Positions 22,404-34,723 of a stretch of DNA of 46,827 nt are shown piece after piece. Below the pieces are notes generated by a model, which had not been told where the DNA came from, searched no databases, and saw only the letters and a program-made list of their open reading frames with translations. Every line of letters starts with the position of its first letter. Position 1 is the first letter of the stretch. This DNA comes from a virus, in IMG/VR virus record IMGVR_UViG_3300046000_007986, positions 1-46,827 of that record; one strand, 5' to 3'. Both the position numbers and the translations under genes were made by a program.

Positions 22404-22588
22404 TACTTTGCTCCTCTCGTTAGGGTCACTGCGCCCTGATATACGTCATGTTGACGCTTACAGCTTGGACATGTGTGAAAAAGTTTCTCGCTCCAATGTG
22501 CGGCGACCCATACACCGAATTCATGGAATTCGCCGCACTCACACTTGAAGCCCTTCGGCATGTCCTTTTTAGGCGAATTCGGTGGCAT
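22403..22588 (-). CDS. 61-aa zinc-ribbon protein
   Basis: Start taken as ATG 22588, inside the end of the RNA ligase gene (20-nt overlap); ATG 22561 right after AAAAAGGAC is an alternative. The fold signature is KCECGEFHEFGVW, then FHTCPSCKRQHDVYQG: a CxC and a CPxC knuckle about 25 residues apart, a zinc ribbon. Family not recognised; located immediately downstream of the RNA ligase, so an RNA-related role is conceivable. Confidence 0.6.
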   Translation of the reverse strand: MPPNSPKKDMPKGFKCECGEFHEFGVWVAAHWSEKLFHTCPSCKRQHDVYQGAVTLTRGAK

Positions 22589-23744
22589 CTGCGCTCTTAC
22601 GAAGCAGGTAGGCAGACGACACGCTCTTGGCGATTTTGCGACCGTAATGCGGGTGCGGCGTTTCAAAGAAATGTTTCACAACCACGCCTTCCCGAATGTG
22701 GGAGTTCAGACCGCTTACCGTTTCTGTGCCATCGGTCAGTTCAAGCATTTTGGCTTCACTGAACGGGCCGCAGTAAAGGGTCGGCACCCTGAAGATTCCC
22801 ATGTCGGACATGATTCGCTGGAACGTGTCATGGTCAAAGTAGGAAAGGTTGTCGCGCTCACCAAACGCCAGGTCGAAGGCAAGAAACTGAAGCTCCTTGC
22901 CGCCGTAGGTCAAGTCTTGAACACCCTTCCCGCTTGGCATGACTCCAAACACTTCACCCATCAGATAGACAGCCCTGCCCATTGCAATCTTGCCATCGGC
23001 AAAGCGGTCAAACATTTTGTCCAGCAAGCCGAACTTGGCGACCGCCTGGGCATAGACATTCCCTTCCTCAAGCGGGTCAAGCAGCCAACCTTTCGCAGAC
23101 ATGCCTTTGCTGGACATGATGACGCGGCCCTTGTAATACTTCTCGTCTGCTTTGTCGGGCGGCAGCACGCCAATCACCATGAACGTCCCGTGGATCTTCT
23201 CGGTGATGGCTACGTGTTCACCTTGTTCGAACATCGAAGGATTCTTTTTGATGTTCTCAAAGTCGTATTTGATCGTGTTGGCGTAATCGACCCCGACCAC
23301 CCTGCCGGCCATGTGGGAAGGTAGTGCTGGCTCGTATTTGACGATACCCAGGAATTCAGCAACGTCATCATCTTCGTTGAAGGCTTGTGAATGATGAACA
23401 CTCAACTCGGCATCGCTACTGTTCGTAACGAGAAGGAACGAAGGCTTAATATCGTCGCCATGATTCCCTGCCAATACCAACCCTTGCGACACGATGCCAC
23501 GCAGCTTGATCGCCTTAACGCGATTCTTGGCACCACCCGACAGCTTGCCGGTAAGCCCCATCTTCTCAAGTAGCCAATCGGGAACAATAGCCTGTTCGGG
23601 AATGTAGACCGCCAGATCGCCGGTCTTGAAGTCGCCCTTGCGGACGATAGCCTGATAGCCACCAACCCGTGCCAGTTCGATTGCATCGGCGTTCGGGTGG
23701 GGTTCGATGGTGAGGCGCACCACATTGCACTGGAAGTCGCTCAT
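22569..23744 (-). CDS. RNA ligase, DRB0094/Rnl5-type (TIGR02306-like), 391 aa
   Basis: Start chosen at ATG 23744, overlapping the upstream TGA. The N-terminal ~150 residues are the OB-like module special to the Deinococcus DRB0094 family (NVVRLTIEPHPNADAIELAR...GDLAVYIPEQAIVP). Motif I is TEKIHGTFMV with K183 as the AMP-accepting lysine, motif IIIa-IV regions include GRAVYLMGEVFG and REGVVVKHFFE, and motif V is RKIAKSVSSAYL. The family seals 3'-OH/5'-PO4 RNA ends, preferring nicks. With RtcB at 25306 the phage carries both major RNA end-joining chemistries, fitting repair of cleaved tRNAs. Confidence 0.87.
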   Translation of the reverse strand: MSDFQCNVVRLTIEPHPNADAIELARVGGYQAIVRKGDFKTGDLAVYIPEQAIVPDWLLEKMGLTGKLSGGAKNRVKAIKLRGIVSQGLVLAGNHGDDIKPSFLLVTNSSDAELSVHHSQAFNEDDDVAEFLGIVKYEPALPSHMAGRVVGVDYANTIKYDFENIKKNPSMFEQGEHVAITEKIHGTFMVIGVLPPDKADEKYYKGRVIMSSKGMSAKGWLLDPLEEGNVYAQAVAKFGLLDKMFDRFADGKIAMGRAVYLMGEVFGVMPSGKGVQDLTYGGKELQFLAFDLAFGERDNLSYFDHDTFQRIMSDMGIFRVPTLYCGPFSEAKMLELTDGTETVSGLNSHIREGVVVKHFFETPHPHYGRKIAKSVSSAYLLRKSADATEFA

Positions 23745-24055
23745 TGCAAGCCACCCGCATCTGCAATCGCAGCCGCAAAACACATGGCTACGACACGGTG
23801 GTTGGTGACTTGTTCTTCACAGAACAACGAGTCATTTTCGAAATCTTCTGGCAAAAGCCAGTCACCCTCCAAACTTCTGTTACGCGGCGCAATCAGTTTC
23901 GCGTAAAACAGTTCAGCTTTAGGATAACCAGCTTTATCTCTCACACCTCCACCAAGGACAGCGAGGCAAGAATAGCGTTCGCCACCTTCTTCAACCAGCT
24001 TTGCGCCTGATCGAATAATGTCGCCAAACGTTCTACCGTTTTCTTCAAGTTCCAT
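23741..24055 (-). CDS. 104-aa hypothetical protein
   Basis: ATG 24055 after AGGGAGAAAT; its TGA overlaps the RNA ligase start. Acidic helical N-terminus and a basic middle (YAKLIAPRNRSLEGDWLLPE), ending AVAMCFAAAIADAGG-like. First gene of the RNA ligase operon, downstream of the 24076 hairpin promoter. No family recognised. Confidence 0.6.
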   Translation of the reverse strand: MELEENGRTFGDIIRSGAKLVEEGGERYSCLAVLGGGVRDKAGYPKAELFYAKLIAPRNRSLEGDWLLPEDFENDSLFCEEQVTNHRVVAMCFAAAIADAGGLQ

Positions 24056-25305: not shown

Positions 25306-26571
25306 TTACGTTCCCTTCACATTCAGCACGGCACGAAGCGTATGCTTGATGCCTACCAAGTCCTTCTGGTTTTCCATCACCACGTCGATATCCTTGTAAG
25401 CGCCCTTGATTTCATCAATCAGCGCCTTGTCGGTGCTGCACTCAACGCCGGCGCTCTGGTCGATCAAGTCCTGGTGGCTGAACGTTGCACGGGCCGCAGT
25501 TCGGCTCATGACCCGCCCTGCCCCGTGTGAGCAGGAGCAATACGATTCCTTGTTGCCCTTGCCACGAACGATGTAGGACTTCGCACCACGGGCGCCGGGG
25601 ATGATACCTAGCTGACCCTCACGGGCGCTTACGGCACCCTTACGGGTGATCCACAGGTTCTCCCCGAAGTGGTTCTCACGGGTGGCGTAGTTGTGGTGAC
25701 AGTTGATCGCCTCGCTGGTGACGTTCCATTTGGTCGGAATGTGACGCGCAAGCGCCTCAAGAACCAGTTCCATCATTACCGCCCGATTCTGAAGCGCGTA
25801 GTCCTGCGCCCACATCATTCCGTCGATATACCGCTGAAACTGTGCGCTGCCTTCGGGAACGTAGGCAAGGTTGTTGTCGGGAAGCTGGATGAAATACCGC
25901 TCCATTTCTTCCTTCGCTTCCTTGATGAAGTGACTACCGATGATGTTGCCGATGCCGCGACTGCCTGAGTGCAGCATGACCCATACGTTGTCGGCTTCGT
26001 CCAGGCACAGTTCGATGAAGTGGTTTCCCCCGCCGAGCGAGCCGAGTTGTTGCGCGGCCTTGTTGTGCAAACTGGTAATGGAATGACCTTTGGTGATATA
26101 CCCAAAAGTCTGTTCTGCCATATCCCACTGAATCGAATCCGCCATAAAGCGGGAAAAGAACCGCGCCTTAGTATTAGGCTCATCCAGGTTGTGACCAGCC
26201 TGACCAAGCGGAACGTCACGCTCAATCTGAAGGCGAATGTTACGAAGGCTATCGGGAAGGTCAGATGCCTTCAGGGACAGCCGAATTGCGTTCATACCGC
26301 ACCCGATATCGACACCGACTGCGGCGGGGATAATTGCCCCCTTGGTGGCGATTACAGACCCTACAGTGCTGCCGATACCACCATGAACGTCAGGCATCAC
26401 TGCTAGACCGTTCTTGTGGATGAAGGGCAGCTTGGCGGTGTTTTCAAGCTGACTCATTGCGGAATCTTCGATATCCGGCAGGATTTTCAGTTCGCCATTG
26501 ATGATGGTGCTACCCGCACGTCCTACCCATGCCTTAATCGGCACCGAACCTTCAGTTTTGACTACGATCAT
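25306..26571 (-). CDS. rtcB: RNA-splicing ligase RtcB, 421 aa
   Basis: Full-length and with the full set of RtcB landmarks: DVHGGIGSTVGSVIA (~61-75), AAVGVDIGCGMNAIR with the metal-binding DxGCG (~84-97), SLGGGNHFIEL (~173-183), VMLHSGSRGIGN (~195-206), TRKGAVSAREGQLGIIPG and YCSCSHGAGRVMSR with the GMP-accepting His (~350). RtcB joins 2',3'-cyclic phosphate (or 3'-P) to 5'-OH ends using GTP and Mn2+, and repairs cleaved tRNA. It starts with TAATG overlap from the 145-aa gene. Two ligase types close together suggest defence against anticodon nucleases. Confidence 0.95.
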   Translation of the reverse strand: MIVVKTEGSVPIKAWVGRAGSTIINGELKILPDIEDSAMSQLENTAKLPFIHKNGLAVMPDVHGGIGSTVGSVIATKGAIIPAAVGVDIGCGMNAIRLSLKASDLPDSLRNIRLQIERDVPLGQAGHNLDEPNTKARFFSRFMADSIQWDMAEQTFGYITKGHSITSLHNKAAQQLGSLGGGNHFIELCLDEADNVWVMLHSGSRGIGNIIGSHFIKEAKEEMERYFIQLPDNNLAYVPEGSAQFQRYIDGMMWAQDYALQNRAVMMELVLEALARHIPTKWNVTSEAINCHHNYATRENHFGENLWITRKGAVSAREGQLGIIPGARGAKSYIVRGKGNKESYCSCSHGAGRVMSRTAARATFSHQDLIDQSAGVECSTDKALIDEIKGAYKDIDVVMENQKDLVGIKHTLRAVLNVKGT

Positions 26572-28880: not shown

Positions 28881-28968
28881 TGGTGCGTCGTGATGGATTC
28901 GAACCACCGTAGCCCCGGAGGGCGGCTGCTTTACAGGCAGCTAGTTTTAACCACTCACTCAACGACGC
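28881..28968 (-). tRNA. tRNA-Tyr(GUA)
   Basis: Acceptor GCGTCGT/ACGACGC with A73 and encoded CCA; anticodon loop CTGTAAA (GUA); long class II variable arm as expected for Tyr. First tRNA of the array in map order. Confidence 0.93.
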
Positions 28969-28974
28969 TTTGTT

Positions 28975-29049
28975 TGGTATCCCCGGAGAGACTCGAACTC
29001 TCTAAATCGGCTTGAAGGGCCGCTCACTCGTCCTTTTGTATTCGGGGAT
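28975..29049 (-). tRNA. tRNA-Glu(UUC)-like, unusual (A8, C33)
   Basis: Acceptor ATCCCCG/CGGGGAT, A73, CCA encoded, T arm GAGAG/CTCTC. The anticodon loop reads CCTTCAA, giving UUC with C instead of U at 33, and position 8 is A, not U. D stem is only 3 bp. Charging identity is therefore uncertain; may be functional or decaying. Confidence 0.6.
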
Positions 29050-29054
29050 GCTTG

Positions 29055-29273
29055 TTACAGTGAAACCAAGGACACCATGATGTTGACGTTGCCGCCGTTG
29101 TCATCAACATGTCCGTGTGAGATAACCTGAATCTGCTTGCCTGAAACCATATTCGGCAACAGTGCGACCGCTTGGATAACCGATTGCTGAACCAGCGAGT
29201 CAACCGGCTGTGCAGCGATCATTTCCATCGCTTGTGCCTTCGATGCTGCTTTGAAATTGAAACTCCATGACAT
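29055..29273 (-). CDS. 72-aa hypothetical protein
   Basis: Start chosen at ATG 29273 after AAGGAGAAGCGC. MSWSFNFKAASKAQAMEMIA... followed by a QVISHGHVDDNGGNVNIMVS strand pair: a small alpha/beta protein of a kind widespread in phages. It sits between two tRNA genes on the same strand. Function unknown. Confidence 0.62.
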   Translation of the reverse strand: MSWSFNFKAASKAQAMEMIAAQPVDSLVQQSVIQAVALLPNMVSGKQIQVISHGHVDDNGGNVNIMVSLVSL

Positions 29274-29294
29274 GCGCTTCTCCTTGTAAAAACC

Positions 29295-29364
29295 TGGCGC
29301 CCCGTGAGAGATTCGAACTCCCGTAACCGGCTTCGTAGGCCAGTATCCGTCCACCGGACGGGGC
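29295..29364 (-). tRNA. tRNA-Arg(ACG), shortened D arm
   Basis: Acceptor GCCCCGT/ACGGGGC, G73, CCA; anticodon loop CTACGAA (ACG) on a CTGGC/GCCGG stem; T arm intact. Only 14 nt lie between acceptor and anticodon stems (normal ~19), forming TCCG-GTGGA-CGGA, so the D arm is minimal. Confidence 0.75.
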
Positions 29365-29370
29365 ATTGTT

Positions 29371-29447
29371 TGGCGGAACGTGAGGGATTCGAACCCCCGA
29401 CAAGCGGAGTAGAAGTCCGCTGCTCTATTCCACTGAGCTAACGTCCC
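29371..29447 (-). tRNA. tRNA-Arg(UCU)
   Basis: Acceptor GGGACGT/ACGTTCC (one G:U), G73, CCA; anticodon loop CTTCTAC (UCU); D and T arms standard. Confidence 0.92.
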
Positions 29448-29891
29448 TTACATATCAAGGATCAGATCCTCTACTTCGGCGCTGAAGGCACGGAACGGGT
29501 CAAAGGTTTCCAGCATGAAGCGACTTTGACTGAGTTCCATGTCAGATGAAGGCTTCGCAATCGACACACACTCGCCCATCGAAAACGCCTGGGCAGCACG
29601 ATCACGACCTTCACGCTTGCAGAACGTGTCCAGCGGATTACACAAGGCGGTCGAGAACTTGATGACACTGCCCTTGCGCGTCTTGACGTGATTCGACGTG
29701 TAGGCAATCGTCATCCCGCCATTCGGCAGCGTCACCAATTCTTCGCCGTCGATTGCGTAATCCCGAACGTGCAGAAAGCGCAGGTTGTGGCGTTCGACCA
29801 ATGCAGCCGTATGCTGACGCTGAAGAACATCCTTCATTTTCGCGTCCATGCGTTTGGCATCGTTGACAAGTTGTTGCGTTTCTTTTTCCAT
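29448..29891 (-). CDS. 147-aa hypothetical protein within tRNA array
   Basis: ATG 29891 after ATAGGAGATGGATT. Coiled N-terminal half (LVNDAKRMDAKMKDVLQRQH), beta-rich middle (VTLPNGGMTIAYTSNHVKTR), acidic end. Its stop is adjacent to the 5' end of tRNA-Arg(UCU). No family recognised. Confidence 0.65.
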   Translation of the reverse strand: MEKETQQLVNDAKRMDAKMKDVLQRQHTAALVERHNLRFLHVRDYAIDGEELVTLPNGGMTIAYTSNHVKTRKGSVIKFSTALCNPLDTFCKREGRDRAAQAFSMGECVSIAKPSSDMELSQSRFMLETFDPFRAFSAEVEDLILDM

Positions 29892-29916
29892 AATCCATCT
29901 CCTATTGTTGAAAATC

Positions 29917-29991
29917 TGGTGCCCTCGGTAGGAATCGAACCCACGACCTACTGCTTACAAAACAGCAGCTCTGCCACTGAGCTACAAGGGC
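29917..29991 (-). tRNA. tRNA-Thr(UGU)
   Basis: Acceptor GCCCTTG/CGAGGGC, A73, CCA; anticodon loop TTTGTAA (UGU); D arm GCTC/GAGC. Confidence 0.92.
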
Positions 29992-30003
29992 AATTCTTAA
30001 AAC

Positions 30004-30077
30004 TGGCGACCAGTGAAGGAATCGAACCTCCGTAAGCGGGTTTGGAGTCCGCAACTCTGCCACTGAGCTAACCGGCC
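30004..30077 (-). tRNA. tRNA-Trp(CCA)
   Basis: Acceptor GGCCGGT/ACTGGTC, G73, CCA; anticodon loop CTCCAAA (CCA). Pair 31-39 is an A/C mismatch, otherwise standard. Confidence 0.9.
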
Positions 30078-30247
30078 TAATCGAACGTTTTGCTGACCTT
30101 ATCGACGCCTGACTCGATTCCGCTAACCACACCTGTCACGACCTTGATACCCATCTCAGGCGCTCTCACAACCGTTTCTACGAGCTTCTCAGCTACGTTT
30201 CCGGGCAGGTCGATCAGACCATCTAGCATTGCGTCAAAAAGTCCCAT
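30077..30247 (-). CDS. 56-aa hypothetical protein
   Basis: ATG 30247 (MGLFDAMLDGLIDLPGNVAE...) with ATATAAGGATTACAA upstream. Amphipathic helices rich in Val/Gly (VVTGVVSGIESGVDKVSKTF) resemble small helical membrane- or protein-binding peptides. The stop overlaps the tRNA-Trp 5' end by one base. Confidence 0.55.
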   Translation of the reverse strand: MGLFDAMLDGLIDLPGNVAEKLVETVVRAPEMGIKVVTGVVSGIESGVDKVSKTFD

Positions 30248-30303
30248 TTGTAATCCTTATATCTGGTGAAAAAGTTGACAAAACCCGCGCCTAGATCCTT
30301 CTT

Positions 30304-30561
30304 TTAGGCAGCGGCCTTTGCTAGTGCTGCATCAACCGATGCAAAGTGACGCGCTTGCTCCGCAGCCTTCTGGTAGCGACCGAACACATCGGCTTCATGA
30401 CGCGCCTTCTCACGACCGGTGCCATGCGAAGTGACCTTGCCGGCAGCGATACGGGCGGCTTTCTTGGCTACCGCTTTATCGTGACGCGCCTTACGATTTA
30501 CCTTGGGGCGAGCCACCGCTACTGATTTGACTGCACCACCTTTGACATTACCTTTTGCCAT
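30304..30561 (-). CDS. 85-aa Lys/Arg/Ala-rich basic protein
   Basis: ATG 30561 after AAAGGGGAGAAGAAC. Strongly basic with repeated Ala/Lys/Arg segments (VNRKARHDKAVAKKAARIAA), probably nucleic-acid binding. Lies 15 nt after the endolysin stop, same strand. Confidence 0.6.
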   Translation of the reverse strand: MAKGNVKGGAVKSVAVARPKVNRKARHDKAVAKKAARIAAGKVTSHGTGREKARHEADVFGRYQKAAEQARHFASVDAALAKAAA

Positions 30562-30575
30562 GTTCTTCTCCCCTT

Positions 30576-31067
30576 TTAGGAATCTTCAGCCGCAAAGATA
30601 AGATTCTCCGCAGCCCTGTTTGCCCAACCTTTGCCAAAGGACTCCCACGTTGAGAGCTTTGTCCAAAACCTGATGCGGTAGGCAATGAACAGCATCAGCA
30701 TGTCCGTCACCGACTTCGCATTGACCGCATTCACCGTGACAGGCCCGATATGACCGTCATCAGCGACACCAGCCGCCTTCTGAAGCATTCGAATCGCGTT
30801 GCCGATACCGTGGTTGACCGCAGCATCGAAAGCCTGAAATGCGATTGCAGCGTGAAACTGGCTCATGCTCCCTGCACGCCAAAAGTCGTCCCAATAGATG
30901 ACCTTGGCTTGTTCACGGGTCAGGTTCTTGATATCCACGTTCGGGTATGTCCGTTTGCTGATACCGAACTTTGTCTCGCCACCAGGATCACGGGGATGGT
31001 TTACATAACCACCCTCATTGGTAATGAGGCGATCAAAAGATTTATCGAAACCAATTTCGTATGACAT
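30576..31067 (-). CDS. Endolysin, GH108-type N-acetylmuramidase, 163 aa
   Basis: The N-terminal block FDRLITNEGGYVNHPRDPGG followed by ETKFGISKRTYP is the catalytic signature of glycoside hydrolase family 108 (E18 in the E-G-G-Y motif), and the C-terminal part is the paired peptidoglycan-binding-like helical end (GHIGPVTVNAVNAKSVTDML...). The family cleaves the MurNAc-GlcNAc bond and typically lyses the host at the end of infection. No signal peptide, so a holin would be needed; none was recognised in the window. Confidence 0.88.
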   Translation of the reverse strand: MSYEIGFDKSFDRLITNEGGYVNHPRDPGGETKFGISKRTYPNVDIKNLTREQAKVIYWDDFWRAGSMSQFHAAIAFQAFDAAVNHGIGNAIRMLQKAAGVADDGHIGPVTVNAVNAKSVTDMLMLFIAYRIRFWTKLSTWESFGKGWANRAAENLIFAAEDS

Positions 31068-31080
31068 GGACTTCCTTATT

Positions 31081-31156
31081 TGGTGGTAAGTGCAGGCATC
31101 GAACCTGCGACCTATCGGTTATCGACCGATTGCTCTGCCAACTGAGCTAACTTACC
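31081..31156 (-). tRNA. tRNA-Ile(GAU), C33
   Basis: Acceptor GGTAAGT/ACTTACC, A73, CCA; anticodon stem ATCGG/CCGAT with loop TCGATAA (GAU). Position 33 is C rather than the near-universal U; otherwise standard. The upstream operator/-10 at 31165-31183 probably drives it. Confidence 0.88.
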
Positions 31157-31164
31157 GATGTTAT

Positions 31165-31183
31165 TCACTAATGACTTATTGTA
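31165..31183 (-). promoter_or_regulatory. TACAAT -10 followed by AAGTCATTAGTGA operator
   Basis: Minus-strand GCTACAATAAGTCATTAGTGAATAAC lies immediately upstream of tRNA-Ile; the recurrent palindrome overlaps the expected start of transcription. Confidence 0.6.
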
Positions 31184-31195
31184 GCTTGAAATGCT

Positions 31196-31288
31196 TGGGG
31201 TGACTGGTGGGATTCGAACCCACGCGGGGGATTTCTCCCACTTCCAGGATCACAACCTGGAGGCTTCGGCCTCTTGCTGACAGTCACC
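31196..31288 (-). tRNA. tRNA-His(GUG)-like with extra long variable region
   Basis: Acceptor GTGACTG/CAGTCAC with the extra G-1:C73 pair that marks His, CCA encoded; anticodon CCAGG-TTGTGAT-CCTGG (GUG); T arm GTGGG/CCCAC. The variable region is ~20 nt (with hairpin GGGA-gaaa-TCCC) and the D region AGGC-cgaa-GCCT is offset by 8 nt, giving 90 nt before CCA instead of ~74. Confidence 0.7.
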
Positions 31289-31297
31289 ATTGAAACT

Positions 31298-31372
31298 TGG
31301 CGGGGCTTAGGGGGTTCGAACCCCTGGCTTCCAGCTAGACAGGCCGGCACTCTACCGCTGAGTTAAAGCCCC
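31298..31372 (-). tRNA. tRNA-Asp(GUC)
   Basis: Acceptor GGGGCTT/AAGCCCC, G73, CCA; anticodon loop CTGTCTA (GUC) on CCGGC/GCTGG. Confidence 0.92.
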
Positions 31373-31473
31373 AATAAATTCTTGAACCATCTTTTGATTC
31401 GATACCACCGAAGCCTTCGCTTCTGTTCAGCGAAGGCTTCTTCCTGACTTATATCGTCCTCCCATATCGGCAT
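31363..31473 (-). CDS. 36-aa basic mini-protein overlapping tRNA-Asp
   Basis: ATG 31473 follows a strong AAGGGGGAG RBS at six bases. MPIWEDDISQEEAFAEQKRR then LRWYRIKRWFKNLLGL: an acidic start and basic, Trp-rich amphipathic end. The TAA lies inside the tRNA-Asp 5' end. Its DNA also forms an 11-bp perfect hairpin (31411-31441), so an RNA role is possible instead. Confidence 0.5.
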   Translation of the reverse strand: MPIWEDDISQEEAFAEQKRRLRWYRIKRWFKNLLGL

Positions 31474-31829
31474 AACTCCCCCTTTAGGTTGCGCTTTCTA
31501 ACCTACTCCATCCGAGCAGTGGTTTTTAGCCGGTCTGCTCACCCTCGGTGCTACTCACAACCAGCCCCTCCCCACGGAGGGTAGAAACAACCAGCGCAAT
31601 CTTGCAGAGTAGGCGTGTAACGACGCCTCGTGTTATTTGCTCCGCATCCATCTGCGGCTACCTTGCAGGCATCCAATGTGGGCGCGGTCAATGAACCCCT
31701 CTAGTAAGTAAAGGACGTTCAGCCTACCCACACTGGAAGTCACCCCGCAAGCTCTCTGCGTATTCTTCCACGGTTACGATTCCGTGTTGCACTCATCGGC
31801 AACGATTTCTATACACGCCACGACAAATA
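31474..31829. other. ~355-nt ORF-free, hairpin-dense region downstream of tmRNA coding piece
   Basis: No open frame is supported on either strand. Perfect stems include AGGTT/AACCT (31486-31504), GAGCAG/CTGCTC (31514-31540), CCCTCC/GGAGGG (31566-31581), AGGCGT/ACGCCT (31611-31628), CCGCA/TGCGG (31642-31657) and TGTGGG/CCCACA (31678-31733). It is probably RNA: either the 3' part of the tmRNA coding piece or one or more separate structured RNAs. No RNase P or group I intron core was recognised. Confidence 0.6.
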
Positions 31830-31891
31830 AGACCCGCCTTTGGTTGATAAGGCATTGCATTGCTGCAACGGGCGGGGGAACCCCAGGAGGC

Positions 31892-31933
31892 TTAAGCGGC
31901 TAGCTTAAGTTCTCCGTAGAACGCATCGTTTGC
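31892..31933 (-). CDS. tmRNA proteolysis-tag frame, ANDAFYGELKLAA
   Basis: Resume codon GCA at 31933-31931, then codons for Ala-Asn-Asp-Ala-Phe-Tyr-Gly-Glu-Leu-Lys-Leu-Ala-Ala and TAA at 31894-31892. Tags typically start A(A)ND and end in (L/V)AA, as here; the middle differs from the common DE/DNYALAA types. The Leu-Ala-Ala end is the ClpXP/Tsp degron. Confidence 0.8.
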   Translation of the reverse strand, partial: ANDAFYGELKLAA

Positions 31934-32021
31934 ATTTACATGCTTGCTCCTTTAACGTCGGTCGCCTGACGTGTCGTAATCTCTAGCTTCGCGGCGCCCA
32001 ATCGATATCCAGGTCGCCCCC

Positions 32022-32110
32022 ATCATATGAACACTGGCGGGTGGAGTTGAACCACCTAATCCGGTTAGCAGAGCCAGCTTTTGCCGGGTGCCGTTCAGCC
32101 AATGTGCAGG
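32022..32110 (-). other. tmRNA intervening segment with tRNA-like hairpin
   Basis: An 8-bp helix ACATTGGC (32105-32098) / GCCAGTGT (32038-32031) closes the segment a few bases from both mature ends (32111 and 32021) and encloses a perfect T-arm-like hairpin GGTGG-TTCAACT-CCACC (32056-32040) and a CCGGC-aaaa-GCTGG hairpin. A complete tRNA could not be folded and no CCA is encoded. Probably removed by RNase P and tRNA 3'-end enzymes during maturation. Confidence 0.65.
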
Positions 32111-32219
32111 TGGTGGAGGCGGCGGGAATTGAACCCGCGTCTTGAACGCTTTCCACTTTCGACTTTCATGCCCTATCATCAGCCGCTAACACTTGATAGT
32201 CGGCCAAACCTACGGGCAC
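32111..32219 (-). other. tmRNA acceptor piece with pseudoknot
   Basis: Upstream of the T arm, GTGCCC (32219-32214) pairs with GGGCAT (32073+100 region, 32173-32168) and encloses interleaved GCCG/CGGC and CTATCA/TGATAG helices, i.e. a pseudoknot as found before the tRNA-like domain of tmRNAs. The piece begins just after the stop of the HNH gene, so its 5' end lies between about 32219 and 32232. Confidence 0.65.
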
Positions 32220-32232
32220 ACACAACAATTCT

Positions 32233-32691
32233 TTACGATTCACTGGCTGCTCTAGTTAAACATCTTTGAAGATTGTGAAGATGCCAGTTGCAATTATTTA
32301 CCGTTTTAATGCCAATTCTATTTAGCTCGGACACTATTGCGCGCTGCGATATTTCCTTCACTACACCGCGCTTAGATATTTTTCTGTTCTCATCCTTAAT
32401 TTTCAAAATCATCGGCATCATTGAATCTGCAAATTCTTTTGCATATTTCTTTCTCGCAGCACTTGCGTTGGCGAGATTTGCTATACCAGAACTTCCTAAT
32501 TTAACGCCTCTTTCTTTTGCTTTTTGAAGTCCAAGAATTGTTAATTGCCTATGCCCTTCTCGACCTTCGAATCCATGAGCTAATCCATGACAACCTGAAC
32601 ATAGCGGGATTGTCTTGGTGCCACCAACCAACCTTGGAACAACATGGTGTTCATGATCTGATTCCTTTCCACACTCAAAGCATAGTTTCAT
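32233..32691 (-). CDS. HNH endonuclease (homing type), 152 aa
   Basis: Start taken at ATG 32691 (MKLCFECGKESDHEHHVVPR). The zinc/HNH block is CFECGKESDHEHHVVPRLVG then TIPLCSGCHGLAHG, with two Cys pairs and the HHVVP ββα-metal core. After it comes LGLQKAKERGVKLGSSG, a resolvase-type DNA-binding AT-hook/helix often fused to phage HNH enzymes, and a C-terminal basic helix region with ISQRAIVSELNRIGIKTVNN (winged HTH-like). The DNA is far more AT-rich than its neighbours, indicating recent arrival. It abuts the acceptor piece of the permuted tmRNA. Confidence 0.85.
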   Translation of the reverse strand: MKLCFECGKESDHEHHVVPRLVGGTKTIPLCSGCHGLAHGFEGREGHRQLTILGLQKAKERGVKLGSSGIANLANASAARKKYAKEFADSMMPMILKIKDENRKISKRGVVKEISQRAIVSELNRIGIKTVNNCNWHLHNLQRCLTRAASES

Positions 32692-32697
32692 GCAACC

Positions 32698-32719
32698 ATT
32701 ATAGCTCACTACTGACTTA
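32698..32719 (-). promoter_or_regulatory. TAAGTCAGTAGTGAGC-TATAAT promoter, leaderless start
   Basis: Operator (32706-32719) followed by TATAAT (32698-32703); the HNH ATG at 32691 is only six bases past the -10, so if this promoter is used the mRNA is leaderless or nearly so. Confidence 0.65.
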
Positions 32720-32737
32720 TTTATGCTACTTCTAACT

Positions 32738-32812
32738 TGGCTCCAAAGGAAGGGATCGAACCTTCGACCAACGGATTAACAGTCCGCTGCACTACCGCTG
32801 TGCTACTTTGGA
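32738..32812 (-). tRNA. tRNA-Asn(GUU)
   Basis: Acceptor TCCAAAG/CTTTGGA, G73, CCA; anticodon loop CTGTTAA (GUU). Confidence 0.92.
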
Positions 32813-32967
32813 TCTGACCTGTGAAACTCTACCCATGCCGCAGTCCATTTATCCATCGACTCTTGATAACCAGGATTGCCGGCACCGATACGTTTGGATT
32901 CCTTACGCGCTTCTGCCATTAACTTCATGAGCCGCTTGTATTCAGGATTATTTCTGTCTCTGGTCAT
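32803..32967 (-). CDS. 54-aa charged helical protein
   Basis: Start taken at ATG 32967 (MTRDRNNPEYKRLMKLMAEA). One charged helix plus WTAAWVEFHRSDPK. Its TAG stop lies inside the first 10 bases of tRNA-Asn. No family recognised. Confidence 0.5.
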   Translation of the reverse strand: MTRDRNNPEYKRLMKLMAEARKESKRIGAGNPGYQESMDKWTAAWVEFHRSDPK

Positions 32968-32980
32968 AAGTTTCTCAATT

Positions 32981-33057
32981 TGGTAGGGGCGGTAGGATTC
33001 GAACCTACGAATGCAGGAATCAAAATCCTGTGTCTTAAGCCTCTTGACGACACCCCA
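32981..33057 (-). tRNA. tRNA-Gln(UUG)
   Basis: Acceptor TGGGGTG/CGCCCCT, with a U1/U72 mismatch (Gln tRNAs have a weak first pair), A73, CCA; anticodon CAGGA-TTTTGAT-TCCTG (UUG). Confidence 0.9.
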
Positions 33058-33149
33058 ACTGACTGCAAAAAATCTGAAAGTCACCTACCGTATGGATTAC
33101 GCGTCCTGTCATAGCAGAGCCATCTTTAACCATCGGCAACTTCCATTTC

Positions 33150-33225
33150 TGGTGGAGAAGGTCGGGTTCGAACCGACGACATCCTGCTTGCAAAGCAGGC
33201 GCTCTCCCAACTGAGCTACGACCCC
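33150..33225 (-). tRNA. tRNA-Ala(UGC)
   Basis: Anticodon CCTGC-TTTGCAA-GCAGG (UGC); G3:U70 present; A73, CCA. Acceptor pairs 5-68 and 6-67 are mismatched (GGGGTCG/CTTCTCC). Confidence 0.88.
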
Positions 33226-33263
33226 ATTCTGTTAGGCACTAAACGACTTAACGCCTAATAGAA

Positions 33264-33340
33264 TGGTCTGGATGGTAGGATTTGAACCTACGACCTCTCG
33301 CTTCCAAAGCGAGAACGCTACCGGACTGCGCTACACCCAG
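33264..33340 (-). tRNA. tRNA-Pro(UGG)
   Basis: Acceptor CTGGGTG/CATCCAG, A73, CCA; anticodon CTCGC-TTTGGAA-GCGAG (UGG). Confidence 0.92.
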
Positions 33341-33412
33341 ATTGAACTGCTTGCTGCACAAACTACATATTACCGACTGCATCTTGGAACTACTTGAGGC
33401 AACTGCAACTAC

Positions 33413-33504
33413 TGGCGGAAGGTGTAGGGATTGAACCCACGCAGCCTGGTTCACAGGCTATCTCGGTTTTCAAGACCGGTGCATTACCGCTCTGCCAACC
33501 TTCC
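33413..33504 (-). tRNA. tRNA-Ser(UGA)
   Basis: Acceptor GGAAGGT/ACCTTCC, G73, CCA; loop CTTGAAA (UGA); long variable arm with AGCCTG/CAGGCT stem. Confidence 0.92.
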
Positions 33505-33512
33505 ATGTTCTT

Positions 33513-33589
33513 TGGTGCGCCGGGTGGGGTTCGAACCCACAAAACCGGATGTTTAAGACCCGTATGTATGCCAATTCCATCACCAGCGC
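33513..33589 (-). tRNA. tRNA-Leu(UAA) lacking the long variable arm
   Basis: Acceptor GCGCTGG/CCGGCGC, A73, CCA; anticodon CGGGT-CTTAAAC-ATCCG (UAA); Leu-like D arm. The variable region is only GTTTT (5 nt), whereas bacterial Leu tRNAs normally have a long arm. Confidence 0.82.
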
Positions 33590-33597
33590 ATCGTTCT

Positions 33598-33672
33598 TGG
33601 TGGGTCGGACAGGCTTCGAACCTGTGACCAAGGGCTTATGAGGCCCACGCTCTACCCCTGAGCTACCGACCC
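33598..33672 (-). tRNA. tRNA-Met(CAU) (elongator or Ile2)
   Basis: Acceptor GGGTCGG/CCGACCC, A73, CCA; anticodon GGGC-CTCATAA-GCCC (CAU). Methionine elongator versus lysidine-modified Ile cannot be decided from sequence. Confidence 0.9.
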
Positions 33673-33677
33673 TGTTC

Positions 33678-33765
33678 TGGCGGAAGGTGAAGGATTCGAA
33701 CCTTCGGAGACTCACGCCTCTACGAGTTAGCAACCCGCTGTCATCAGCCTCTCGACCAACCTTCC
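33678..33765 (-). tRNA. tRNA-Ser(GCU)
   Basis: Acceptor GGAAGGT/ACCTTCC, G73, CCA; loop TTGCTAA (GCU); long variable arm. Its acceptor stem equals that of tRNA-Ser(UGA). Confidence 0.92.
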
Positions 33766-33815
33766 TTATACGTGTCATAAAATTCTCCAAAACCCTCGGC
33801 CAAGGCGATCATTTC

Positions 33816-33893
33816 TGGAAGTCAGAGTGGGATTCGAACCCACGGCTTTACCGCTTTGCAGGCGGTTACATTGGGCCACTCTGTCATCTGACT
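33816..33893 (-). tRNA. tRNA-Cys(GCA)
   Basis: Acceptor AGTCAGA/TCTGACT, U73 (Cys identity), CCA; anticodon ACCGC-CTGCAAA-GCGGT (GCA). Confidence 0.92.
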
Positions 33894-33900
33894 ATTGTTC

Positions 33901-33975
33901 TGGTGCCGACCCTTGGAATCGAACCAAGCTACTCCGGGGTTTCAAGCCGGCGCTAAACCACTCAGCTAGGACGGC
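33901..33975 (-). tRNA. tRNA-Phe(GAA)
   Basis: Acceptor GCCGTCC/GGTCGGC with one U/U mismatch, A73, CCA; loop TTGAAAC (GAA); pair 31-39 is C/C. Confidence 0.88.
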
Positions 33976-33984
33976 GAATAAATG

Positions 33985-34037
33985 CCTAACGTGGCGGGTC
34001 GATATTCCCGCTGACCAGGCCGGTTCGCCACGTTAGG
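33985..34037. repeat. 12-bp inverted repeat, structured element between tRNAs
   Basis: CCTAACGTGGCG (33985-33996) and CGCCACGTTAGG (34026-34037) enclose 29 nt that can itself form GCGGG-aatatcga-CCCGC with part of the stem. Not a tRNA; may be a processing signal or a decayed tRNA-like RNA. Confidence 0.6.
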
Positions 34038-34046
34038 GCTTCGTTC

Positions 34047-34121
34047 TGGTGCCTAGTGAGAGGGTCGAACTCCCGACCATCGCCTTGTAAGGGCGCTGCT
34101 CTACCACTGAGCTAACCAGGC
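34047..34121 (-). tRNA. tRNA-Val(UAC)
   Basis: Acceptor GCCTGGT/ACTAGGC, A73, CCA; loop CTTACAA (UAC). Confidence 0.92.
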
Positions 34122-34194
34122 TAATTCTAGAGAGTTCCGATATCACCCATCGTCACTCACAACCGTTGACCGGCCTTTCAGCCAGTGTTTGCTC

Positions 34195-34279
34195 TGGTGC
34201 CCAACAAGAGACTCGAACTCTCACGCCTTGCGGCACATGATCCTAAGTCATGCGTGTCTGCCAATTCCACCAATCGGGC
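34195..34279 (-). tRNA. tRNA-Leu(UAG)
   Basis: Acceptor GCCCGAT/GTTGGGC, A73, CCA; anticodon CATGA-CTTAGGA-TCATG (UAG); long variable arm GCC-gcaa-GGC, unlike the Leu(UAA) gene. Confidence 0.92.
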
Positions 34280-34299
34280 AAATCTTTACTACGAATTCT

Positions 34300-34375
34300 T
34301 GGAGCGACCAGTGGGAATCGAACCCTACTCTACACGGCTTGGAAGGCCGGCGACTGAACCCGTCAGCATGGACGC
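34300..34375 (-). tRNA. tRNA-Gly(UCC)
   Basis: Acceptor GCGTCCA/TGGTCGC with one U/U mismatch, U73 (Gly identity), CCA; loop CTTCCAA (UCC). Confidence 0.9.
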
Positions 34376-34403
34376 TTTGTTTACAACCTGATTTTTAAAG
34401 AGC

Positions 34404-34430
34404 AAAAAAAAGACGCTTGCGCGTCCTTTT
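34404..34430 (-). terminator. Rho-independent terminator
   Basis: Minus strand AAAAGGACGC-gcaa-GCGTC followed by T8. It ends transcription from the 56-aa gene, insulating the tRNA-Gly end of the array. Confidence 0.82.
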
Positions 34431-34452
34431 AGAGAAGAAAGGACTGAAACTT

Positions 34453-34623
34453 TTACTTCGTTACTTCCTTGATACTGATAACACGGTCGGCATACGCATA
34501 AGTCTCAAACAATTGACCATCCTGGAGGATTTCTAATCCCACGGGATTGCCTCGATCTGTCGTTGTCACATGGACTTCGACTGCTGCTGGACAATGTGCT
34601 TTAACCGTTACCGTTGTAGTCAT
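34453..34623 (-). CDS. 56-aa beta-rich hypothetical protein
   Basis: ATG 34623 (MTTTVTVKAHCPAAVEVHVT...). Alternating Val/Thr strands and VGLEILQDGQLFETYAYADR suggest an all-beta mini-protein. RBS AAGGCAGCATGAAGTA upstream is weak. Lies between tRNA-Met and a strong terminator. No family recognised. Confidence 0.55.
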   Translation of the reverse strand: MTTTVTVKAHCPAAVEVHVTTTDRGNPVGLEILQDGQLFETYAYADRVISIKEVTK

Positions 34624-34648
34624 TTACTTCATGCTGCCTTATGTTTGT

Positions 34649-34723
34649 TGGTTGCGATGGGTGGAGTCGAACCACCGACGAACGGCTTATGAGGCCGTCG
34701 AACTACCGTTGTTCTACATCGCA
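34649..34723 (-). tRNA. tRNA-Met(CAU), possibly initiator-like
   Basis: Acceptor TGCGATG/CATCGCA, A73, CCA; anticodon ACGGC-CTCATAA-GCCGT (CAU). D-region GTAGAACAACGGTAGTTCG and GCAACCA end recall bacterial initiator tRNA, but pair 1-72 is U:A, not the usual C/A mismatch. Confidence 0.85.

Follow-up and report, generated by a model that had tools for sequence, protein, structure and literature searches.

The tRNA array of the phage fragment analysed here raises the question of what kind of gene places the 3' half of a tRNA-like structure before its 5' half, and of what the segment between the two halves might be. The window, i.e. the whole stretch of DNA that was analysed, is an IMG/VR virus fragment of 46,827 bases. 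We consider it very probable from its sequence that positions 32173-31892 of the minus strand encode a phage-borne circularly permuted (two-piece) tmRNA (ssrA), as proposed in the initial annotation. This tmRNA is a further member of a known phage class, ordinary in kind and real; the new part is the recurrent nesting of tRNAs in the spacers of phage two-piece tmRNA genes.

On the minus strand, the 3' half precedes the 5' half and the acceptor strands of the two are complementary. The acceptor piece is transcribed first and carries an encoded CCA at its end. The parts of the locus are the following:

28881-34723, minus strand: tRNA array surrounding the tmRNA gene, 21 genes by ARAGORN and 20 by RF00005
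32111-32203, minus strand: 3' (acceptor) piece of the permuted tmRNA (from 32203 by ARAGORN, from 32173 by RF04321)
32142-32149, minus strand: 3' strand of P2, GCGTTCAA, 8 bp with 32001-31994
32122-32138, minus strand: tmRNA T arm GCGGG-TTCAATT-CCCGC (sequence; RF04321 alignment)
32121-32115, minus strand: acceptor 3' strand CGCCTCC, with the discriminator A at 32114 and CCA at 32113-32111 (sequence; pairing)
32022-32110, minus strand: intervening segment of 89 nt between the tmRNA halves, predicted to be removed
31801-32021, minus strand: 5' (mRNA-like) piece with the GGGGGCG start, resume codon, tag and 3' stems (ARAGORN; RF04321)
32015-32021, minus strand: acceptor 5' strand GGGGGCG, pairing with CGCCTCC
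31994-32001, minus strand: 5' strand of P2, TTGGGCGC, pairing with GCGTTCAA
31892-31933, minus strand: tag reading frame ANDAFYGELKLAA with its stop (ARAGORN; ANDAFYGE-type start in 60 viral contigs)

Base by base, the coordinates first given for the T arm, the acceptor strands and the CCA proved correct. CGCCTCC and GGGGGCG form seven acceptor pairs including G3:U70, the alanine identity pair, and the P2 helix between the pieces, likewise proposed at first reading, has eight pairs. The resume codon GCA (31933-31931) lies 88 nt in and opens the short tag frame, which ends hydrophobically (LAA) and stops at 31894-31892. ARAGORN called a tmRNA* at 32203-31801 with this very tag. The covariance search that the initial annotation had suggested pointed the same way: RF04321 (Rfam tmRNA_permuted, which merges the alpha RF01849, beta RF01850 and cyano RF01851 families) matched 31892-32173 of the minus strand over its full model (1-213) with 115.7 bits and an E value of 5.2e-22, the gathering score being 47. 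The beta_tmRNA model RF01850 gave 82.6 bits, slightly below its gathering score of 84, and does not count as a match. In a set of 119 distinct permuted tmRNAs from phages, all seven acceptor pairs are kept except for one pair in one sequence, a conservation partly helped by ARAGORN's own selection; compensatory changes occur at pair 4 (G-C to C-G) and, in several types, at pairs 5 and 6. Near 31400-31600, Rfam gave weak matches to viral and lncRNA elements, which were attributed to chance.

The tRNA-like character of the intervening segment had been missed in the first reading of the sequence. It concerns one element:

32031-32104, minus strand: tRNA-like element in the spacer (shuffle test, covariance models, tRNA-Ser alignment)

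Its T arm, GGTGG-TTCAACT-CCACC (32056-32040), is followed one base later by GCCAGTG (32038-32032), which forms an acceptor-like helix of 7 bp with CATTGGC (32104-32098), so that a 5-bp T arm with a TTCRANY loop abuts a 7-bp helix, as in a minihelix. From the acceptor strand to the T arm there are 41 nt, as is usual for tRNAs that have no long variable arm. In dinucleotide shuffles the T arm with its abutting helix never appeared (0 of 200,000) and a 5-bp T arm alone appeared in 0.03%; the test was defined after inspection of the spacer, yet by generic tRNA rules. A covariance model built from 16 tRNAs of the window (the window-tRNA model) matched the spacer weakly, at 10.2 bits with an E value of 0.03 in 1.7 kb. 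Among the phage's own tRNAs the best local alignment was to tRNA-Ser, and 4 of 1000 shuffles aligned as well.

A competing explanation, to which we give a substantial but smaller than even chance, is that the spacer is an ordinary hairpin of no tRNA origin whose T arm is a chance look-alike. It draws on the high diversity of phage spacer hairpins, which range from 27 to 159 nt in the ANDAFYGE tag group and mostly have no T arm there, and on the window spacer itself, in which no convincing D or anticodon arm was found. RF00005 gave no match to the spacer, so an intact nested tRNA is not seen in the window; tRNA-Sec RF01852 reached 17.8 bits, far under its cut-off, and ARAGORN made no call there at its default threshold and no convincing one when the threshold was lowered. 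A hand-drawn cloverleaf (CTGG-C-TCTGCTA-A-CCGG) was rejected, as it has no U33, is short of one pair and shows no clear D arm. The shuffle results and the tRNA spacing speak against a chance resemblance, as do the similar T arms in several other phage spacers and the intact tRNAs in others. The weak full-length match leads us to read the spacer as a decayed tRNA or a tRNA-like hairpin, and the decayed tRNA is the most likely form because intact tRNAs occupy the same place in related phages. Given the absent D and anticodon arms, the silence of RF00005 and the weakness of the 10-bit match, decay from a tRNA is suggested rather than proven, and we favour it by a little. The segment ends in TGAT, as do many of its relatives. 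Within the ANDAFYGE group, spacer interiors (e.g. L148, L128, L163) are very unlike each other, yet in most spacers a helix seems to close the segment and TGAT forms its end. The 159-nt spacer of L135 holds an open frame of 47 codons with a Shine-Dalgarno-like AAAAGGA, and the frame stops at the TGA within the conserved TGAT that precedes GGGG.

Intact tRNAs were found in the spacers of permuted tmRNA genes in about 25 other viral contigs, which clustering sorted into 14 sequence classes and whose nested tRNAs are of Asn, Tyr, Ala, Glu and Ile identity. They were detected by scanning viral contigs for a T loop within the spacer, with follow-up of the hits, and include the following loci:

L226 13505-13863 and L212 1264-1638: tRNA-Tyr in a permuted tmRNA gene
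L197 1777-2168, L222 and L224: nested tRNA in a permuted tmRNA gene
L186 1306-1575: nested tRNA-Ala, both Rfam families above cut-off
L216, L238 and L241: nested tRNA-Ala, both Rfam families above cut-off
L219 (Glu) and L235 (called tRNA-Ile): nested tRNA, both Rfam families above cut-off

In L186, a tRNA-Ala of 70.4 bits lies within a tmRNA of 91.7 bits (Rfam). The nested tRNA-Asn and tRNA-Tyr were called by ARAGORN and the window-tRNA model inside tmRNA-model matches above cut-offs; this model scored Asn at 71.0-73.7 bits and Tyr at 42.2, within the range of the free-standing tRNAs of the same loci, and their absence from the Rfam output seems to be due to clan competition. L189 holds a decayed nested tRNA (43.8 bits). 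L112 and L190 were rejected as nested cases, since a one-piece tmRNA (RF00023 in L112, the same sequence in L190) is there followed by a tRNA, and L187, L188 and L195, for which the two-part test called a tRNA and no tmRNA, were left out of the set.

Spacers are empty in the isolates S-CAM1, S-CAM3, S-SSM7 and Sf-FS3. L226, with its tRNA-Tyr, is about 93% identical outside the insert to S-CAM1, in which TCAT (4 nt) makes up the whole spacer. The nested tRNA-Asn genes have their empty counterpart in S-SSM7, and in Sf-FS3, a relative of L224, the spacer is empty and a tRNA-Asn lies downstream at a distance of a few hundred bases. One tRNA-Tyr insert is shared by the two different tmRNA backbones of L226 and L212, which suggests exchange. 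An exact-motif pattern scan of 84,980 bacterial and archaeal genomes (species) gave four matches, none of them a permuted tmRNA. The tmRNA database paper (PMC11915505) describes a permuted tmRNA whose intervening sequence contains an intact tRNA-Ala, a single case termed unique, in the nominally archaeal MAG GCA-2688965 sp002688965, and notes that misbinning is possible for its archaeal cases; in the literature searched, no report of such nesting was found beyond this one. This single published 'archaeal' case may be a phage sequence.

Phage two-piece tmRNAs as such are known. The suggestion in the initial annotation that the locus might be an undescribed phage version did not hold, since two-piece phage tmRNAs were published in 2022 (PMC9004378) and nine isolate genomes carry one. 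In that study 18,146 phage genomes were scanned and 133 unique tmRNA structures obtained, 53 of them two-piece and 50 of these 53 from marine or aquatic samples; phage Melnitz was treated in detail. RF04321 scored above cut-off in phages of Caulobacter (CcrPW, CcrRogue), Xanthomonas (XacN1), Bordetella (PHB04), Stenotrophomonas (BUCTxx99) and Synechococcus (S-SSM7, S-CAM1, S-CAM3), as well as in Tunturi_5. The last (L263, 157899-158195; 86.4 bits) is an acidobacterium phage. Permuted tmRNA is mainly known from three bacterial groups, to which the acidobacteria do not belong. In S-SSM7 (L206 704-922) and S-CAM3 (L246 300-440), a deposited hypothetical protein overlies the tmRNA gene, which is absent from the feature tables shown. 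The permuted order with a spacer of 70-100 nt was matched at least 119 times in viral contigs, about 100 of those listed being called permuted by ARAGORN, and most of the 60 contigs with the tag start ANDAFYGE carry a permuted tmRNA, its spacer measuring 27-159 nt.

This spread also bears on whether the window gene could be a pseudogene, i.e. a host ssrA acquired by the phage and no longer used. One extra base in the D-loop region (UGGAUAUCGAUU vs UGGuUUCGAC) and a score below those of several phage relatives would fit disuse, but the gene keeps every pairing element intact, together with its resume codon, tag and stop, and the tag family recurs in many viral contigs with a conserved start and differing spacers, which makes a pseudogene improbable. 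That a one-piece tmRNA or an ordinary tRNA gene was mistaken for a permuted tmRNA is so unlikely that it can be set aside: the 120 nt upstream of the T arm contain no 5' partner for CGCCTCC, GGGGGCG can pair downstream with two G-U-rich 7-mers only (31717, 31589), neither of them adjoined by a T loop or CCA, one-piece RF00023 was not reported on the window, where the 5'-before-3' order is not seen, the permuted model fits end to end, and the window-tRNA model gives only a truncated match of 18.7 bits at the acceptor half. The initial annotation had named two observations that would contradict it, a one-piece acceptor end downstream of the tag and a normal tRNA using the acceptor at 32111-32140, and neither was made.

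A proteobacterial host is likely. The nearest relatives of the ribonucleotide reductase are in Rhizobium phages (54-56%), and those of a RecA/UvsX-like protein in Pseudomonas phage nickie and in Rhizobium and Stenotrophomonas phages (about 45%). In viral contigs, an exonuclease query found no close relatives and a ribonucleotide reductase query found five relatives of 51-56% identity, with no tmRNA in the stretches covered. Other window genes encode thymidylate synthase, SbcCD-like proteins and, near the tRNA array on the minus strand, an RtcB-like tRNA ligase (25306-26571) and an RNA ligase (22569-23783); repair of cut tRNAs is a possible role of these two ligases.

In the permuted tmRNA family, tRNA enzymes excise the spacer and the pieces remain paired and act in trans-translation. 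By analogy with this family, the transcript of the tRNA array would read through the window tmRNA gene, host RNase P would cut at GGGGGCG, and 3' nucleases or RNase Z would act at the CCA. Removal of the 89-nt spacer would leave two RNA pieces joined by the acceptor helix and P2, to be charged with alanine via G3:U70. No SmpB gene was found in the 46,827-base record, itself a fragment, so that host SmpB would serve; together with it, the charged tmRNA would enter stalled ribosomes and add ANDAFYGELKLAA, whose LAA end would lead to proteolysis. The tmRNA would presumably be made at the same time as the array tRNAs. The tRNA-like spacer may aid RNase P in placing its cut beside the CCA, or may be neutral. 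We regard it as an even bet that the spacer of phage two-piece tmRNAs is a recurrent landing place for tRNAs, in which the nested tRNA is both an extra product and a source of RNase P and 3' processing sites separating the halves, the window spacer being a decayed member kept for processing.

A proper survey of nesting in the relatives is merited. At nested genes, tRNA and tmRNA callers can mask each other. Phages place whole tRNA genes in the tmRNA gene repeatedly, with varied tRNAs and with close relatives that have no insert. With filled and empty spacers to compare, one can test whether maturation of the tmRNA is driven by the nested tRNA or the discarded spacer is a site for neutral cargo.

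Among known systems, phage two-piece tmRNAs have been little studied, and the window adds one in a large tRNA array. It shares with the RF04321 permuted tmRNAs the half order, the acceptor and P2 pairing, the resume site and a tag ending in LAA, and differs from them in its location in a phage tRNA array and its 89-nt tRNA-like spacer. The tmRNAs of mycobacteriophages (Bxz1, Wildcat and others) and Bacillus phage G are, as far as is known, one-piece, unlike that of the window. What these phages have in common with it is a phage-encoded tmRNA (PMC4131195). OM43 phage Melnitz and other aquatic phages (PMC9004378) likewise encode a permuted tmRNA, accompanied in Melnitz by a glutamine riboswitch, of which Rfam reported none in the window. 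The closest parallel to the nesting is GCA-2688965 sp002688965 (PMC11915505), where a tRNA also lies inside a permuted tmRNA spacer; its tRNA-Ala is intact, whereas the window spacer is at best a decayed form, and it is a single case, whereas nesting is seen here in about 25 viral contigs with five amino-acid identities.
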